NCBI RefSeq assembly: GCF_000739085.1
Contig: NZ_CP009110.1
Location: forward strand, 5,704,001 to 5,768,000
Direction of reading: 5' to 3'
Source of the DNA: Amycolatopsis methanolica 239
GTDB lineage: Bacteria > Actinomycetota > Actinomycetes > Mycobacteriales > Pseudonocardiaceae
Length of the DNA stretch: 64,000 nt
The stretch's first letter is position 1. Every line of letters starts with the position of its first letter. The notes beneath the pieces were generated by a model. The model ran no database searches and was not told where the DNA came from. It saw nothing but the letters and a program-made list of their open reading frames with translations. This document shows positions 9,556 through 36,134 of this stretch, one piece after another. A program made the translations under genes and the position numbers.

Positions 9556-10757
9556 CGACCTGCAACCTCGACTGGTCGCCGTCCGCGGGCAGGCGCGGGC
9601 TGGCGGACGCGTTGCGCCATGCCATCCGCGAAGGCCGCCTCGCGCCTGGCACGGCGCTGCCCTCGACGCGTGCGCTCGCGGCCGTCCGCGGAACCCCGCG
9701 AGAAGTCCGGGCCGCCCACGTCCGCCTGGTTCCAGGACGCGCGCTGGGACCTGTTCCCCGGCCGGCCCGACCTGTCGTCGTTCCCCCGCACGGCGTGGGC
9801 GTCCGCCATGCGCCGGGTCCTGCAATCGCTGCCCGCCGGGTCGTTCGACTACGGCGACCCGGCCGGGCCCGCCGTGCTGCGCGAAGCCCTGGCCCGGTAC
9901 CTCGCACGCAGCCGGGGCGTGCTGGCCGATCCGGACCGGATCCTGGTGTGCGGCGGCTACTCCCACGCGATCAGCGTGCTCGGGCACCTGTTCCACGAGA
10001 TCGCCTTCGAAGACCCGTCGCTGCCGGAGTTCCGCGACGGCGCGGCCAAGGGCGGCGCGGTCGCGGTGGACGAACGCGGCATCCGGGTGTCCGAACTGGA
10101 CAGTCCGGTGCCGTCGTGACCTCGGCGCACCGATACCCGCTCGGGATCACGCTCGCCCCGGAACGCCGGTCAGCGCTGGCGTGCTGGGCGGCCGCGGGTG
10201 GCCTGGTGATCGAGGACGACTACGACGGCGAGTTCCGGTTCGACCGCCAGCCGGTCGGTGCGGTGCAGTCGCTCGCGCCGGAGCGGATCATCTACGCGGG
10301 CGGGGTCAGCAAGACGCTCGCGCCGTCGCTGCGGATCGGCTGGCTGGTCCTGCCGCGGCGCCTGGTCGGGCCGGTGCTCGACACGATGACGGCGCTGGGC
10401 TGGCGCGCCCCGGTGATCGACCACCTGGCACTGGCGGACCTGCTGAACTCCAGCGCGTACGACCGGCATGTCCGGTAGCGCCGGGTCGCCTACCGCCGCC
10501 GCCGCGACCGGCTGATCGCCGCGCTACCGCCGGGGTTCGTGCCGGAAGGCATCTCCGCGGGACTGCACCTGGTGCTGCGCGTGCCCGACGAAGCCGCCGT
10601 GCTGCGGGCGCTGCGCGCGCGATCGGTGGCGGTGGACTACCTGAGCCGCTACTGGACGGGCACCGGACCCGGCGGACTGGTGATCGGCTACGCGACCCCG
10701 GCCGAGCACGCGTTCGGCCCGGCGGTGGAGGCGCTGGTGGACGGCCTGCGCGCCTGA
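9545..10757 (+). pseudogene. MocR-type (GntR/aminotransferase) regulator remnant
   Basis: A winged-helix start (LDWSPSAGRRGLADALRHAI, EGRLAPGTALPSTRALA) is cut short and joined out of frame to an aminotransferase-like domain (RPDLSSFPRTAW, GSFDYGDPAGPAVLREALA). The frame breaks again near 10117. It then resumes with PLGITLAPERRSAL, VIEDDYDGEFRF and the PLP-lysine segment IYAGGVSKTLAPSLRIGW. A TAG at 10476-10478 interrupts the next helix, after which AVLRALRARSVAVDYLSRYW finishes the domain. At least two frameshifts, one internal deletion and one nonsense codon make it nonfunctional. Confidence 0.8.
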
Positions 10758-29368: not shown

Positions 29369-30236
29369 CGGTTCGTCGAACAGGGCGTGTTTTCCCGGCA
29401 CGCGGACGCGGACCGCCTCACCAGACAGTTCCTCCGCCACCAGGGCGCCGAAGAACACGCGCGGATGTGGCCCGATGCCGAATACCCCGGGCTCTGGCCG
29501 GCCGGGCGGCTGCTGACCCACATGTCCTGCTTGGAGACTTCCTCGACGAGATCTGGGGCCCCGACCAGGACGAGCACGCCGCCCACGTGGTCGGCCTCAT
29601 CGCCGACATCCTCAACGACAAGTCCGCCCCGGCCGCGGTGGCGGCCGGGCCGCTGGCGGTGCTCCTGGACTCGCTGTGGACCGAAACCCGGTCGGTCGCA
29701 CCGAACACTGGCTGGCCCGGGCCGCGCGGATCCACCTGGCATACCTGGAAACGAGCATGGCGGAACGCGCGCTCCGGGCGGCGGGCGCGGTGTCGACGAC
29801 GGCGCGGTACGTGACCTCCCGCCACTACAACGGAGGGATGTTCTACGCTGCCGCGCTCGTCGAGCTGGCGAACGAAGCCTGGCTACCGGAGGACCTGTCC
29901 GGCCGCCCGGAGATCACCGACCTCGCGCTGCGGCTCAGCAACGCGAGCACGTGGGCCAACGACCTGTTCTCGTACCAGCGGGAAGCCGCGCACGGCACCG
30001 GCGCCAACCTCGCGGTGGTGCTGACGACGCACGAGGGCCTGACCGAGGACGAGGCGGTCACCAAGATCGTCGAGCTGGTCAACGCCGAACTGCTCACCCT
30101 GGACTTCCTGTGCGACGCGGCGGCCGCCCTGCCGGATCCGGCGGCCCGGTACGCGGACGGCGTACGGGCACTGACCTCCGGGCTGATGCACTGGATGGCC
30201 GGAACCGCCCGCTACGCGACGACGCCGAGCGCCTGA
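29369..30236 (+). pseudogene. Class I terpene synthase remnant
   Basis: Three frames hold successive parts of a terpene cyclase: RFVEQGVFSRHADADRLTRQ; then GDFLDEIWGPDQDEHAAHVV, a degenerate aspartate-rich motif region; then HLAYLETSMAERALR and STWANDLFSYQREAAHG. The last matches the NSE metal motif (N-D-x-x-S-x-x-x-E), followed by GANLAVVL. Two frameshifts (near 29530 and 29690-29710) plus a shortened N-terminus make it nonfunctional as read. The product class cannot be told. Neighbours are a glycosyltransferase, a P450 and a TetR regulator, so it was probably the core of a small terpenoid cluster. Confidence 0.72.
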
Positions 30237-30270
30237 CGGCCGGCACGTGCGTCCACGAAGGACCGTCACA

Positions 30271-30924
30271 CTACCGCGGTTCGTCGGCCGGAACCGGGAT
30301 CGAGCTCAGCCACCGTGCGCGCTGCTGCTCGACCGCGGTGTCGATCGCCTGCAGGATGCTCGTGATCACGAGGTCGTATATCTGGTCCGCGCTCAATCCC
30401 CGATCGGCCTCCGCCTTCGCCAGCGCCGGGTACTCCCCTGCGGCGCTCGCGCCCGGCCCGTCGGTGCGGGTCTCGTGCAGAGCGCTGCTGACGGCGAACG
30501 CCGCGAGCGCGTCAAGCAGTGGCATCACCACTGCGCTCGGCACACCCTCGCGCATGAGCCGGGCGGCGGAGGTGTCGAGCAGGTGCGCCCCGAACCCGTG
30601 CGACCGCGACGCGACGATGACCGGCAGCAGCGCGGGATGGGCGAGCAGCACGCGGCGCAGGGTGCGAGCGTTGTCCGGCAGCCACTCCCGCCAGGAGGCG
30701 TCGGGCTCCCCGATGTCGCGCACCTCCTCCAGAACCAGGTCCGCGACGCCGACGAGGATGTCCTCTTTGCTCTTGAAGTGGTGGTACAGCGAGGCGCCGT
30801 TGACCCCCAGCGCGGCCGCGAGGCGCCGGATGCTCAGCGCTTCGAGCCCGCCGTCGTCGATGATCTCGAGCGCGGCCTCCAGCGCCCTTCGCCTCAAGAT
30901 CAACGGAACCTTGGGTCTCACCAC
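30271..30924 (-). CDS. TetR-family regulator (TetR_C type)
   Basis: 217 residues from GTG at 30924 (VVRPKVPLILRRRALEAALE). Helix-turn-helix about 22-60 (GLEALSIRRLAAALGVNGAS, LYHHFKSKEDIL), then a TetR_C-like all-helical ligand domain as in tetracycline repressor. An upstream frame to 31002 is open but lacks homology. It is convergent with the terpene synthase remnant and divergent from the PEP-utilising enzyme remnant, suggesting it controlled the latter. The 290 bp upstream is unusually AT-rich for the window. Confidence 0.87.
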   Translation of the reverse strand: MVRPKVPLILRRRALEAALEIIDDGGLEALSIRRLAAALGVNGASLYHHFKSKEDILVGVADLVLEEVRDIGEPDASWREWLPDNARTLRRVLLAHPALLPVIVASRSHGFGAHLLDTSAARLMREGVPSAVVMPLLDALAAFAVSSALHETRTDGPGASAAGEYPALAKAEADRGLSADQIYDLVITSILQAIDTAVEQQRARWLSSIPVPADEPR

Positions 30925-31216
30925 GCCGTGACTATAAGTCAACACCGCTCGATACCCGGCCGGGTGATAAATCGCCTCTCCCGGTAGAACGGCGATCAAC
31001 ATTCCGGAAAATCAGCCAACCCGCCGTGCGCGGTGACCAGCCGCGGGCCGCACCGCTGACCAGGGCCGATGGCGCCACATCATACCGCAGTTAACCGTGC
31101 GTTGCCGGGTTCTTGCCGAATTGGAGCCGGGCAGGAAATTTTGGCTTAGTCGCAGCCTTATGCGGTCACCCCGAGCGGGTCTAAGATCACCCGGGCTCGC
31201 CTAAACCGAACGATGA

Positions 31217-32680
31217 TTGGTGTCGCTCGTGCTTCCTCCCACACCAGGATCCGATCCGCTCGACAACGCGGCCTGCGATCCCGGCGCGACCTGGACCACC
31301 GGCAACGTCGCCGAAGCCTTTCCCGGCGTCTCCACGGCGCTCGGCTTCACCTTCATCCACCGCCCGACGGAGCTGTCGTTCCGCAAGATGTTCCGCGGCA
31401 TGGGCGTCTTCGGGAAGGCCGCGCTGGCCGTGCCCGAGCGCATCGAGGACCAGTTCTGGACCGCCTTCCGCCGGACGCGCGGCGGCCAACATCAACCAGT
31501 TCCGCACCGTCCCGAGCCTCATCCCGGGCACCTCGGCGACCGCCATCGAACAACAGCTGTTCGGTTACGTCCGGGAAGGCACCGTCGACGAGAACTCGAT
31601 GCGCCGGTACCCGATCATCGGGGTGAAGACGCCTCGCGCTGTCTTCACCCTGCCCAAGAAGCGCGACCGCATGTTCGCCGAGCTCCGCGAGTGGCGCCTC
31701 GCGACCCTGCCCACGATCCCCGGCGGGTCTGTCGCCGACAGCCTGGCGATCCTGCAGGACGCCAGGGAACGCTTCGAGCGGATCATGATCCTCCACCTGC
31801 TGGTGGCGTTCGTCAGCTCGGGCCTGGCCGACCGGCTGGCCGCCATGGTCGCCGCCGCGGACGTGCCCGGCCTGGAATCCCGGCTGCTGTCGGGTGTCGG
31901 CTCGGACGAGAACGAGGTCGCCCAGGACCGTGGCTGCTCGCGCACGAGCGGATCGATCTCCAGACCTCCTGGACCGGCACGGCTATCACGGCCCGCACGA
32001 GGGCCACCTGCACAGCACCTCGTGGCGCGAGGACCCGGCACCGATCCTGGCCCGCCTCGCCGACTGCCGCGCGGTGGCCGAAGACGATCCGCGGGCGCCC
32101 CGCAACCGCGCCGCCGCGCAGACCCGCATCCGGCACGCGGCCGCCGAGGAGCTCAAGAAGGCGGTGTCGCCGTTCCAGCGCCGGTCGATCACGCTGCTGA
32201 CCAACCTCTCGGCCCGATTCCTCGCGCTGCGGGAGCAGGGCAAGGCCGGCTACCTCCTCACCTTCGACGTCGCCCGCGCCGCGGCCCGCCGGATCGGGGC
32301 GGACCTGGTGGACCGGGGACTCCTCGACGACGCCGCCGACGTCTTCCACCTCACCTTCGACGAGGTCGTCTCCGGTGACGCCACCGACCGCCGCGACCTG
32401 GTGCGGCACCGACGGGCCCAGTACGAGGACCGGTTGCGCTACCGGCTCCCACAGGCGTGGGCCGGGATGCCCGAGCTGATCGAGATCGTCGGTGACGCCG
32501 CGTCGGACGCCCCGGTGGGCACCACGATCACCGGGGTGGCGGCCAGCGGCGGCGGCGTCGAAGGGCGCGCCAGGGTGGTCCGCGACCCGGCGGCCACCGA
32601 ACTGGACGACGGCGACATCCTCGTCTGCGAGACCACCGATCCCAGCTGGGTGTCCCTGTTCCTGGTCGCCGGGGCACCTC
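31217..32680 (+). pseudogene. PEP-utilising enzyme (PEP synthase/rifampin phosphotransferase-like) remnant
   Basis: Frame 1 reads DPLDNAACDPGATWTTGNVA and FRGMGVFGKAALAVPERIED. Frame 3 continues NINQFRTVPSLIPGTSATAI to LAILQDARERFERIMIL. After two more shifts near 31920-31960 the sequence resumes as DRHGYHGPHEGHLHSTSWRE and FHLTFDEVVSG, ending in GDILVCETTDPSWVSLFLVA. That is where the swivelling phospho-His domain should begin, but the sequence stops matching. The catalytic His segment and everything after it are missing. At least three frame breaks and a truncation: a dead gene. Confidence 0.75.
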
Positions 32681-33104
32681 CTCGTCGTAGATCTCCGCGG
32701 ATCGGGAGTACGGGGAGATCCTGCGCATGTGCCAACGCACGGATTTCGGCCCACACCGCGTCGAGCACGGGGTCACCGCCGGCGAGGAAGTCCCGGCACA
32801 CCACGGTGGACACCGCGAACGCGCATTTCGCCGGGTACAGCGAACGGTTCACCGGGCACGGGAGGCCTTCGGGGCGGGTTCGGACAGCCACCTGACGGGA
32901 GTGCTCGTCGACTCCTACCACAACATCTGGTTCGAGTGCCACGAGTGCTTCTTCATCACGCTGGGCCGCTCACGGCAGGCGGAAGAACCGCCTGAGAATC
33001 GTCCTTTGTGGATGGATGAGGTTGCCGCGCGGCTACATCCGGGTCCGCGCGCCCACCGGCAACCCCACCGGGGTGCGTCAAAGTCGACTCCCGCTCCGGC
33101 CGGC
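32681..33104. other. Intergenic region with an unrecognised minus-strand gene fragment
   Basis: From about 32920 down to 32700 the minus strand reads RTRPEGLPCPVNRSLYPAKC, then VVCRDFLAGGDPVLDAVWAE and IRALAHAQDLPVLPIR, with coding-like composition. It then shifts frame (ISPYSRSAEIYDEEVP). It looks like the broken end of another gene, family not recognised. The remainder up to the P450 stop holds nothing I can name. Confidence 0.4.
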
Positions 33105-34352: not shown

Positions 34353-34448
34353 CCGGACTAGTGTGATCCACCGCTGCGCACGCAGCGTCACCGGGCGCGG
34401 AAAACCGGTTCGCGATCAGGCGACGGGCTCGTATCCTGATCTCCGCAC

Positions 34449-34579
34449 GCCGGCCACTTCGGACAGGCCCGGTGCGCAGGTGAGGGTTGCTTCCGGCCCA
34501 CAGGTTCGACTCCTGCCCCTCCCCTCGGGAGGTGGAAACCTTCGCCGACTCCTTCTCGGGCCTGTCCGAGGTCGCCGGC
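34449..34579 (+). ncRNA. Candidate bacterial Y RNA (YrlA-like) beside the Ro60 gene
   Basis: A long terminal helix is formed by 34449-34471 and 34557-34579: 23 positions with one mismatch and one G-U, including the perfect 12-bp CGGACAGGCCCG/CGGGCCTGTCCG. Inside is a tRNA-like T arm at 34501-34515, stem CAGG/CCTG with the 7-nt loop TTCGACT, which fits the tRNA T-loop consensus. A GAGGG (34482-34486) / CCCTC (34517-34521) pairing could mimic an acceptor stem; CCTCCC/GGGAGG (34518-34532) is an alternative hairpin. Bacterial Y RNAs known to pair with Ro60 have such a terminal stem plus tRNA-like module. Ends are approximate. Confidence 0.72.
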
Positions 34580-34604
34580 TCTCCCCTTCCCTTGCGAGGC
34601 CGGC

Positions 34605-36134
34605 ATGTCCAAGTTGAACCTGCTCCGCCGAAGACCGGCGAACCGGTCCCCCATCGTCACGGCCGCGGTGCCCGGCGTCGTCAACCACCAGGGTGGCGCC
34701 GGTCACGTCCGTGACGCCAAGTCCGAGCTGTTCCTGCTCGCGGTCGCGAACATGGTCGGCGAGGACACCTTCTACGAGGCCGCGGACGACCGCGACAGCC
34801 GGTACGCCGAGCTGGTCCGCCGCGTCGCAGTGGAGGATCCACCGTGGACTTCCCGGTTCCTGCGGTGGCTGCGCACCGAGGCGAACATGCGCTCCGCGTC
34901 GCTGGTCGGCGCGGCCGAGTTCGTCAAGGCACGCCTGGGCAACCGCGTGAACGACGGGCTGTCGAACCGCGCCGTGCTGGCGAGCGTCGTGCAACGCGCG
35001 GACGAGCCGGGTGAGCTCATCGCGTACTGGTTCGCGCGGTACGGCCGCCGCCTGCCGAAGCCGGTCAAGCGCGGGGTCGCCGACGCCGTGCGCGCGCTGT
35101 ACGACGAGCGGTCCTTCCTGAAGTGGGACAGCGGCAACCGCGGCGTGCGGTTCGCCGACGTGCTGCGGCTGGTGCACCCGGCGCCGCGGGACGCCGTGCA
35201 GGACGCGCTGTTCGAGCACATCCTGCGGGGCGGTCCGCCGCCGCCGGAGCTGACCGTGCTGACCCGGCGGCGGGCGCTCATGGCGCTCCCGGTCGACCAG
35301 CGCCGGGCGGCACTGGACCCGGCGGAACTGCGCGCGGCGGGCATGACGTGGGAGGCGCTCGCCGGGTGGCTGCAAGGTCCGCTGGACGCCGACGCTTGGC
35401 AGGCCGTCATCCCGGGCATGGGGTACATGGCGCTCCTTCGTAACGTCCGCAACTTCGACCAGGCCGGCATCCCGGACGAGGTGGCGGACCGGGTGGCGGC
35501 GCGGCTCGCAGATCCGGGTCAGGTGGCGCGGTCGCGGCAGTTTCCGTTCCGGTTCCTGTCCGCCTACCGCTCCGCGCGGGCGTCGCGGTGGGGGACGGCT
35601 CTGGAGCGTGCCCTGGACGCCTCGCTGGCCGGCGTGCCGTCCCTGCCGGGGCGGACGCTGATCCTGATCGACCGGTCCGCCTCCATGTGGATGCGGGACG
35701 GGCGGTCGGCCGTCACGTTCGCCGATCAGGCCGCCGTGTTCGGGTGTGCGCTGGCGGTGCGGGCGGAGAAGCCGACGGTCGTGGTGTTCGGCTGGGACAG
35801 CCGCGAGGTCGAGGTTCCGCGCGACGGCGCGCTGCTGCCGTTCGTGGAAAGCCTCGACATGTACTCGGCAACGAACACCGCGGCGGCGGTGCGCAGGCAC
35901 TACCGCCGCCACGACCGGGTCGTCCTCCTGACCGACGAGCAGTCCGCGACGACGGACGCGTCGGCCGGGTTGCCGCGCCGGGTTCCGCTCTACGTGTGGA
36001 ACGTCGCCGGGTACCGCTACGGCGGCACGCCGTCCGGGCTGGGCAACCGGCACACGTTCGGCGGGCTGACCGACGCGGCGTTCCGGATGATCCCGCTGCT
36101 GGAAGCCGGCCGCGCCGCGCGCTGGCCGTTCTGA
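34605..36134 (+). CDS. rsr: Ro60/Rsr orthologue (TROVE domain plus von Willebrand A domain)
   Basis: 509 residues. The TROVE HEAT-repeat ring (about 1-345: GGAGHVRDAKSELFLLAVAN; RFLRWLRTEANMRSASLVGA; FVKARLGNRVNDGLSNRAVL) binds Y RNA on its outside and misfolded RNA ends in its cavity. The vWA domain (about 350-509) has the MIDAS motif DRSAS (D356, S358, S360), a Thr in SATNT and Asp in LLTDEQ. ATG at 34605 lies 25 nt after the candidate Y RNA. Bacterial Ro60 acts in RNA quality control and rRNA maturation or decay under stress. No rtcB or PNPase gene is adjacent. Confidence 0.93.
   Translation: MSKLNLLRRRPANRSPIVTAAVPGVVNHQGGAGHVRDAKSELFLLAVANMVGEDTFYEAADDRDSRYAELVRRVAVEDPPWTSRFLRWLRTEANMRSASLVGAAEFVKARLGNRVNDGLSNRAVLASVVQRADEPGELIAYWFARYGRRLPKPVKRGVADAVRALYDERSFLKWDSGNRGVRFADVLRLVHPAPRDAVQDALFEHILRGGPPPPELTVLTRRRALMALPVDQRRAALDPAELRAAGMTWEALAGWLQGPLDADAWQAVIPGMGYMALLRNVRNFDQAGIPDEVADRVAARLADPGQVARSRQFPFRFLSAYRSARASRWGTALERALDASLAGVPSLPGRTLILIDRSASMWMRDGRSAVTFADQAAVFGCALAVRAEKPTVVVFGWDSREVEVPRDGALLPFVESLDMYSATNTAAAVRRHYRRHDRVVLLTDEQSATTDASAGLPRRVPLYVWNVAGYRYGGTPSGLGNRHTFGGLTDAAFRMIPLLEAGRAARWPF

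Follow-up and report, generated by a model that had tools for sequence, protein, structure and literature searches.

A candidate Y RNA gene behind a WhiB7/WblC-like promoter upstream of Ro60 in Amycolatopsis, and its permuted tRNA relatives

The Ro60 gene of Amycolatopsis methanolica 239 raises the question of what the DNA directly ahead of it encodes: a Y RNA gene in its own right, a leader of the Ro60 mRNA, or a copy in decay. The window, that is, the whole stretch of 64,000 nucleotides (nt) that was analyzed, belongs to a 7.24-Mb genome (contig NZ_CP009110.1, positions 5,704,001 to 5,768,000), and the Ro60 (Rsr) gene occupies positions 34605 to 36134 of its forward (+) strand. A preliminary description had placed a tRNA-mimicking Y RNA next to this gene, and that pairing is supported here by covariation, by the conservation of a T loop, and by a match to R1, a covariance model built from RNAs of other genera. 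Comparison of sequences makes it highly probable that positions 34444 to 34579 are a bacterial Y RNA gene, transcribed ahead of and probably together with Ro60 from one WblC/WhiB7-type promoter. The copy is taken as a candidate Y RNA because R1 finds it and because its 5′ box tracks Ro60 within the genus.

The candidate Y RNA (34444 to 34579, + strand, as are all window features below) has predicted ends: the start is placed 7 to 8 nt after the −10 hexamer, and the 3′ end is the end of the terminal helix, 25 nt upstream of the Ro60 start codon on the same strand. The terminal helix joins a 5′ strand at 34449 to 34471 with a 3′ strand at 34557 to 34579 and has 22 pairs over 23 positions, with one C·C mismatch and one U·G pair, just as first described. 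RNA from 34440 to 34590 folds to −82.4 kcal/mol, compared with a mean of −62.0 over 200 dinucleotide shuffles (z = −4.95), none of which was as low. A conserved 5′ internal-loop box, GTGCGCA (34472 to 34478), in which GTGCG and the next AG are invariant in 34 full copies from other genera, is presumed to be part of the Ro60-binding site, and the 3′ box GACTCCTTCTCGG (34547 to 34559), conserved in the wider family, is likewise presumed to form a Ro60-binding side. The inner helix (GGTGAGGGTT, 34479 to 34488, pairing with AACCTTCGCC, 34537 to 34546) encloses the T arm CAGG-TTCGACT-CCTG (34501 to 34515), present as reported and with a stem identical in all six window-clade sequences, and an acceptor-like hairpin obtained by fold prediction, CCCCTCCC-CTC-GGGAGG(T)GG (34516 to 34535). 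The T loop, whose conservation among relatives that keep Ro60 was at issue, reads TTCGACT in five of the six sequences and TTCGATT in the other. The copy shows two marks of a bacterial Y RNA, namely, a position adjoining Ro60 and an end-to-end stem with conserved internal-loop boxes. Its YrlA-type features comprise a T arm with a tRNA-type loop and no D arm by rule; the tRNA-like parts are the T arm and the acceptor-like hairpin only, and an anticodon arm is lacking as well. The tRNA mimicry attributed to this copy is thus partial, extending to the T arm and, in the predicted fold, to the hairpin, with no D arm.

The acceptor pairing first suggested, GAGGG with CCCTC, is probably wrong. Ninety percent of its cells pair in the six sequences, never with a change on both sides; GAGGG falls within the covarying inner helix, and CCCTC makes its own hairpin at 34516 to 34535. 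Speaking for that pairing, energy alone favors it in the naked G002 RNA. When the inner helix and the T arm are held, the acceptor-like hairpin forms at the same place in all six sequences with differing letters, and in unconstrained folds it is full only in the window and G016 and partial in G011.

Within the genus, 19 genomes were searched with the Ro60 protein, and seven carry Ro60. When up to one mismatch is allowed, each of these seven has a single 5′ box and the other 12 have none; 12 further matches in the genus all have 2 or 3 mismatches, and the one inspected (L107) has no T arm. In one of the seven, G008, the locus (L008; contig C38, 121017 to 122434) has the 5′ half of the Y RNA fused to about codon 49 of Ro60 and one internal stop in Ro60; it is broken and in decay. 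Alignment A2 comprises the six window-clade sequences, with G008 left out. In it, the paired share of the cells is 92.8%, and both partners differ at six pairs, in every case relative to the distant G016; five of these lie in the terminal helix and are the compensatory changes that had been sought between 34449 to 34471 and 34557 to 34579. One of 500 shuffles reaches the covariation score, and 7 of 500 reach the count of pairs changing on both sides. By itself, covariation in six sequences, five of them close kin, would be modest evidence. No second Y RNA was found in the window's own genome (G000) by a pattern search at up to one mismatch, which gave only the window copy, and the two other R1 matches examined there both lie on tRNA genes.

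The comparison with other genera carries more of the argument. A genome scan with the Ro60 alignment was used, from which the best 80 of at least 395 relatives were taken. Alignment A3 contains 34 upstream RNAs of other genera, selected for having all arms, with the structure read from one member; 94.9% of the cells pair, a percentage biased toward that member, compared with 36 to 49% when partners are slid, and both partners vary in 24 of 36 pairs. In the inner helix, this holds for seven of nine pairs, and one pair fails in 20 of the 34 copies. Model R1 was built from these 34 copies, without any sequence of the window clade, and it matches the window copy over 34463 to 34568 with 45.8 bits (E = 4e-8 in 1.1 Mb). 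At least one upstream R1 copy is present in 87 of 88 sources, all chosen for carrying Ro60, the exception being the broken G008 locus, so the restriction of such RNAs to "a few lineages" in the preliminary description understates their spread. The relatives have 1 to 4 units upstream of Ro60. A classifier divided 185 upstream copies into 85 with a T arm, an acceptor hairpin, and a D arm, 52 with a T arm and, by a strict rule, no D arm, and 48 in which the T arm is missing. This classifier is rough: it misplaced in the full class L006, in which the D arm is absent by a relaxed rule, and the correction lowers the loci with a full copy from 71 to 70. By the relaxed rule, 11 sources lack a D arm, namely, the window, L002, L004, L005, L006, and L016, which belong to the window clade, and L040, L053, L086, L088, and L092; L040, L086, and L088 keep recognizable D-arm sequence by eye. 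The window clade thus appears unusual in having a single copy without a D arm. Another kind of copy, about 76 to 82 nt long (L036, 5851 to 5928; L045, 5738 to 5816; L050, 5681 to 5760; and similar ones), has boxes and helices, no T arm, and no tRNA-like head, and it adjoins a full copy in those loci.

Circularly permuted tRNAs, complete with a T arm, an acceptor, and a D arm, make up one or more of the copies in 70 of 87 loci. In full copies, the anticodon arm and the variable loop come before the T arm and the 3′ acceptor strand; after a loop, the 5′ acceptor strand and the D arm follow. Once permuted back by script, 81 of 141 constructs, a set that includes poor-quality T-loop matches, are called tRNAs by ARAGORN, compared with 0 of 705 dinucleotide shuffles, a control that is not fully matched in that real cut points were chosen for best pairing and shuffled ones were not; the unpermuted stretches give 14 of 141. 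ARAGORN calls no tRNA in the window construct permuted back. Sixty of 86 full copies have U33 in an anticodon arm with four or more pairs, 40 of them with all five. Among these 60, for which U33 was a selection criterion, C32 occurs in 57, A37 in 51, and A38 in 58, and 23 triplets are present at positions 34 to 36. Copies in L054 (5768 to 5924), L066 (5794 to 5950), and L059 (5800 to 5951) have the look of permuted class II tRNAs, with a Leu/Ser-like D arm (GGCGGAAxGG) and a long variable arm, so that the copies resemble several tRNA isotypes. ARAGORN labels some Y RNAs in the relatives' loci as tRNAs. In Streptomyces phage GiJojo, the annotated tRNA-Arg(cct) at 9796 to 9870 (L134, 1269 to 1343) overlaps an R1 match of 53.5 bits, and in Gordonia phage VanLee, the annotated tRNA-Arg(tct) at 65454 to 65525 (L136, 1204 to 1275) overlaps one of 115.2 bits; both features sit just upstream of phage Ro60 genes and look like Y RNAs rather than tRNAs.

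Co-occurrence with Ro60 was surveyed in 200 genomes of the bacterial family at an E value of 1e-20 or better for Ro60 and 1e-7 for R1, with stricter R1 filters losing weak matches; the protein and R1 samples of 200 were taken as identical since the genome handles agree. A Ro60 match is present in 38 genomes and an R1 match in 37. R1 matches of at least 77 bits occur in 30 genomes, all within the 38 with Ro60; 29 lie within 300 nt of the Ro60 match, and one (G194) lies 1.5 kb away. Eight of the 38 are left: six belong to the genus and have reduced copies or a broken locus, and two, G149 and G198, have fragment matches only and no TROVE domain by Pfam. Seven R1 genomes also remain: one, G017, belongs to the genus; in G071, G172, and G222, a divergent TROVE gene missed by the protein search stands just downstream of an R1 match; and in G086, G146, and G153, the match is two adjacent tRNA genes according to ARAGORN. 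The idea that all weak R1 matches in genomes without a Ro60 match are tRNA pairs is ruled out, since three adjoin divergent TROVE genes. R1 scores adjacent tRNA genes because the junction of two neighboring tRNA genes shows the same arm order, and this suggests that the permuted form may derive from a head-to-tail tRNA pair. Upstream of the divergent TROVE genes, L149, L150, and L151 (G172, G222, and G071, respectively) contain permuted-tRNA RNAs without the usual GGTGCG box, and these loci may represent a second Ro60/Y RNA type. The best R1 match of G071 (55.4 bits) is a permuted-tRNA RNA at about 3688 to 3830 of L148 (contig C1, 251187 to 251329), on another contig than the TROVE gene (C3, 835236); ARAGORN calls no tRNA there, and by eye, it has a WhiB7-like promoter of its own.

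The promoter was not part of the preliminary description. An A-rich box, GAAAAC (34400 to 34405), which fits the GAAAWY of WblC (PMC7157823), stands 3 bp upstream of a −35-like hexamer, TTCGCG (34409 to 34414), and after a spacer of 17 bp follows the −10 hexamer TATCCT (34432 to 34437), a TANNNT; the start is predicted at 34444 to 34445, 4 to 5 bases before the helix. WblC promoters of Streptomyces coelicolor have the layout GAAAWY, 3 bp, TKGMNN, 16 to 19 bp, and TANNNT, with the start 7 to 8 bp downstream and the −35 element described as less conserved (PMC7157823), and WhiB7 promoters of Mycobacterium abscessus have an A/T box 3 bp before the −35 element (PMC10727445). The study of S. coelicolor also counts 22 noncoding RNAs under WblC control. 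The window promoter is like both in its A-rich box 3 bp before the −35 hexamer and like the S. coelicolor promoters in its spacer within 16 to 19 bp, and it shares the TANNNT. The WblC and WhiB7 passages in these two papers make no tie to Ro60 or Y RNA. Across the relatives, a TANNNT ending 2 to 14 nt before the helix is found at 57 of 86 first copies (10.8 expected), at exactly 7 nt in 30 of them, compared with 6 of 95 inner copies (8.5 expected). When 52 nonredundant promoters are aligned on TANNNT, positions −31 to −29 are 96 to 100% A/T against a background of about 25%, and a weak TTG appears near −24. Four consecutive A/T positions between −34 and −27 occur in 67 of the 68 arrays with TANNNT; the figure for control sites at other places in the loci is 42 of 952, and 3.1 arrays are expected from shuffled upstream sequence. 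The count gauges the strength of the motif and is not an independent test, the motif having first been seen in the same arrays. The strict motif with TKG is found in 24 of 87 arrays, compared with 0.18 expected and 11 of 952 control sites.

The A-rich box is retained in all seven genus members with Ro60. G071 played no part in motif discovery; by eye, its two Y-like RNAs have TAAATC-CG-TTGGTG and GAAAAT-GGC-TGGCCG upstream, each with TANNNT 17 to 18 bp on, and its divergent TROVE gene has the same promoter layout. G172 has GAAATT-GGC and G222 a weak box only, also by eye. The window's own genome has eight WhiB-family matches, one of them with an AT hook (RGRPRK) and the same box layout upstream. 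An attenuated whiB7 gene is expected to have a leader with a GC-rich hairpin and a T run. Such a leader, along with a promoter of the WhiB7-like kind, precedes a WhiB7/WblC candidate with an AT hook in L133 (904 to 1800). The WblC/WhiB7-like layout predicts that Ro60 and the Y RNA would respond to translation-blocking antibiotics. In the open-license literature, nothing was found that joins "Y RNA" with "WhiB7" or "Y RNA" with "Ro60" and "Streptomyces," and none of the matches listed pairs WhiB7/WblC with Ro60, although one of them (PMC4255298) contains WhiB7, WblC, and the word "trove."

Several observations weigh against a Y RNA gene under such a promoter. The YrlA covariance model of Rfam (RF02553), proposed earlier as a check, gives no match on 34380 to 34640 at an E value of up to 10. 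With R1, a tRNA-Gly/tRNA-Val pair in the window's own genome reaches 42.2 bits, only 3.6 bits less than the window copy, and the copy is told from tRNA pairs by its place and boxes, not by its score. The absence of a D arm makes a canonical tRNA elbow impossible. Naked folds favor other inner structures, the model fold costing 2.1 kcal/mol in G017, 3.5 in G002, and 4.3 in G005. Position 34489 is G in the window and A in the 34 full copies and five clade relatives (TACTTC to TGCTTC), a difference that may reflect strain variation or sequencing. Relative to the two closest genomes, conservation of the Y RNA does not exceed that of synonymous sites (identity, 0.91 and 0.92; proportion of synonymous differences, 0.08 and 0.10). 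The −35 hexamer of the window lacks TKG, so that the window fails the strict motif, which only 24 of the 87 arrays pass. Finally, 20 of the 87 arrays fail the promoter test, 19 without TANNNT in the 45 nt tested and one without the box; by eye, five of these 20 seem to hide a short copy further upstream, and ten are Lentzea-type arrays with the A-rich box and no −10 element at the proper spacing.

Other explanations have to be weighed against the same evidence. The structure may be only a cis-acting leader of the Ro60 mRNA, an attenuator or a translational control that yields no independent small RNA, as its position on the same strand and 25 nt before the start codon would allow. The hexamer GCCGGC (34599 to 34604), directly 5′ of the Ro60 ATG, is also the sequence of the terminal helix ends, and pairing of this hexamer with the helix could link RNA folding to Ro60 translation. 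However, this hexamer is not found before the ATG in G016, and the arrangement in relatives, with 1 to 4 units upstream, one unit 1.5 kb from Ro60, one G071 unit on a different contig from its TROVE gene, and whole permuted tRNAs in many units, makes a leader and nothing else very unlikely. In the decoy explanation, the tRNA-like head would sequester a tRNA-cutting nuclease or a tRNA-modifying enzyme instead of tethering PNPase, with the relatives' anticodon triplets as baits. The 60 anticodon arms with their 23 triplets are in keeping with this, and a role as a competitive inhibitor has been suggested for YrlA (PMC7790460), but the window copy has no anticodon arm, so that such a role is impossible here, and no nuclease partner was seen among the neighbors examined; a decoy is quite unlikely.

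It is also unlikely that the window RNA is a decaying Y RNA that has lost its arms, no longer mimics tRNA, and is a Ro60 ligand only or nonfunctional. The missing D and anticodon arms of the window clade, the otherwise invariant A altered at 34489, the fused and interrupted G008 locus, and the disagreement among single-sequence folds would all fit decay, but the T stem is unchanged in six of six sequences, the terminal helix has five changes on both sides relative to G016, and the hairpin persists with different letters when the inner helix and the T arm are held. In addition, Ro60 has a ratio of nonsynonymous to synonymous substitution rates (dN/dS) of 0.27 to 0.36, which points to purifying selection, and the A-rich box is kept throughout the genus members with Ro60.

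If the window RNA is a Y RNA expressed ahead of Ro60 from a WblC/WhiB7-type promoter, a mechanism can be proposed. By analogy with other bacteria, Ro60 would bind the terminal helix and the boxes (PMC7790460, PMC4726728, and PMC8394870). The tRNA-like head may contact a tRNA-recognizing partner or an exonuclease such as PNPase, and this contact would steer Ro60 to structured RNA. Blocked ribosomes would raise WhiB7, WhiB7 would activate both genes in the service of RNA quality control, and induction upon ribosome stalling would fit the clearing or checking of rRNA and tRNA under antibiotic stress. Relatives carry complete permuted tRNAs; the presumed Ro60-binding stem is attached where the D arm and the anticodon arm meet, and the acceptor end is closed by a loop. 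The window copy would be a reduced form keeping the top half of the tRNA only. The TruB pseudouridine enzyme needs only a T arm, so the window copy may still be recognized by tRNA-handling proteins. We lean toward the broader proposal that in actinobacteria, WhiB7/WblC controls a stress machine composed of Ro60 and Y RNAs. Ribosome stalling by antibiotics would lead the cell to make RNAs in which permuted tRNAs of many isotypes, with their anticodon arms, sit on a Ro60-binding stem; in the window lineage, these would be cut down to the top half of the tRNA. If so, an RNA quality control ring known from human autoimmunity would be tied to the response to translation-targeting antibiotics. A WhiB7-type promoter would also make Ro60 function directly and cheaply testable in ordinary Streptomyces or Amycolatopsis strains, and the reduced window copy beside complete permuted tRNAs would serve as a natural experiment to show which part of a tRNA is needed by Ro60 complexes.

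The Ro60 gene itself is intact. It encodes 509 amino acids with TROVE and von Willebrand factor A (vWA) domains and a metal ion-dependent adhesion site (MIDAS), DRSAS, at residues 356 to 360 (Pfam and predicted structure), the TROVE domain (PF05731) scoring 51.9 bits against a cutoff of 23 (E = 9.2e-14). The predicted structure, with a mean predicted local distance difference test (pLDDT) score of 83.9, is a helical-repeat ring with a vWA domain and resembles Deinococcus radiodurans Rsr (2nvo; E = 1.2e-16) and vertebrate Ro60 (1yvp_A; E = 2.3e-15); a Thermus phage Ro60 is also among the structural matches. The nearest named Ro60 among the best 80 of at least 395 relatives is that of Amycolatopsis tucumanensis (93%). 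In G025 (L009 and L011; contig C40, 99134 to 101890), the Ro60 match is interrupted at about residues 275 to 300, after GYMA, by about 1.1 kb within a single open frame of 988 amino acids, and the insert looks like an intein. The locus had been said to stand without rtcB or PNPase; neither adjoins it, but both are encoded in the genome, rtcB about 337 kb away. This distance rules out an rtcBA-linked operon of the Salmonella type. Among the neighbors named earlier, NicO is confirmed by Pfam and the terpene synthase fragment is present; a P450 gene is also confirmed by Pfam. At 29676 to 32895, the C-terminal fragment of a terpene synthase is followed by overlapping open reading frames without a Pfam match that by eye resemble a frameshifted phosphoenolpyruvate synthase-like gene, which fits the "decaying terpenoid cluster" of the preliminary description.

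Circularly permuted tRNA genes yield processed, working tRNAs. Like those genes, the relatives' copies hold tRNA halves in reversed order (PMC3978253), but here, a loop closes the acceptor end inside a presumed Ro60-binding stem. TROVE proteins have been noted in Mycobacterium smegmatis and some of its relatives (PMC8628891), and the role of bacterial Ro60 has been studied in few species (PMC7790460). Like the Rsr/Y RNA system of D. radiodurans, the locus combines a Ro60 fold that fits 2nvo with an adjoining Y RNA, and a PNPase gene is present in the genome; the RNA differs in sequence from the Y RNA of D. radiodurans, which works with Rsr and PNPase in RYPER (PMC7790460 and PMC4726728), and a corresponding PNPase complex is only proposed here. 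YrlA is described as having D, T, and acceptor arms (PMC8394870). With the Rfam YrlA model at its gathering threshold, there is no match in the window, and none of nine relatives' loci reaches 69 bits, and the window RNA is thus not YrlA in the strict sense; it lacks a D arm, and many relatives' copies add an anticodon arm that is absent from the Rfam consensus. Like YrlA, however, the window RNA adjoins Ro60 and has a long stem joining both ends, the tRNA-like head of its relatives is permuted, with the T arm first and then the acceptor hairpin and the D arm, and one full copy, from L030, reaches 42.8 bits (E = 2e-8) with the Rfam model. Bacterial Y RNAs that mimic tRNA and stand beside Ro60 are already known, and the window RNA is a variant of them.

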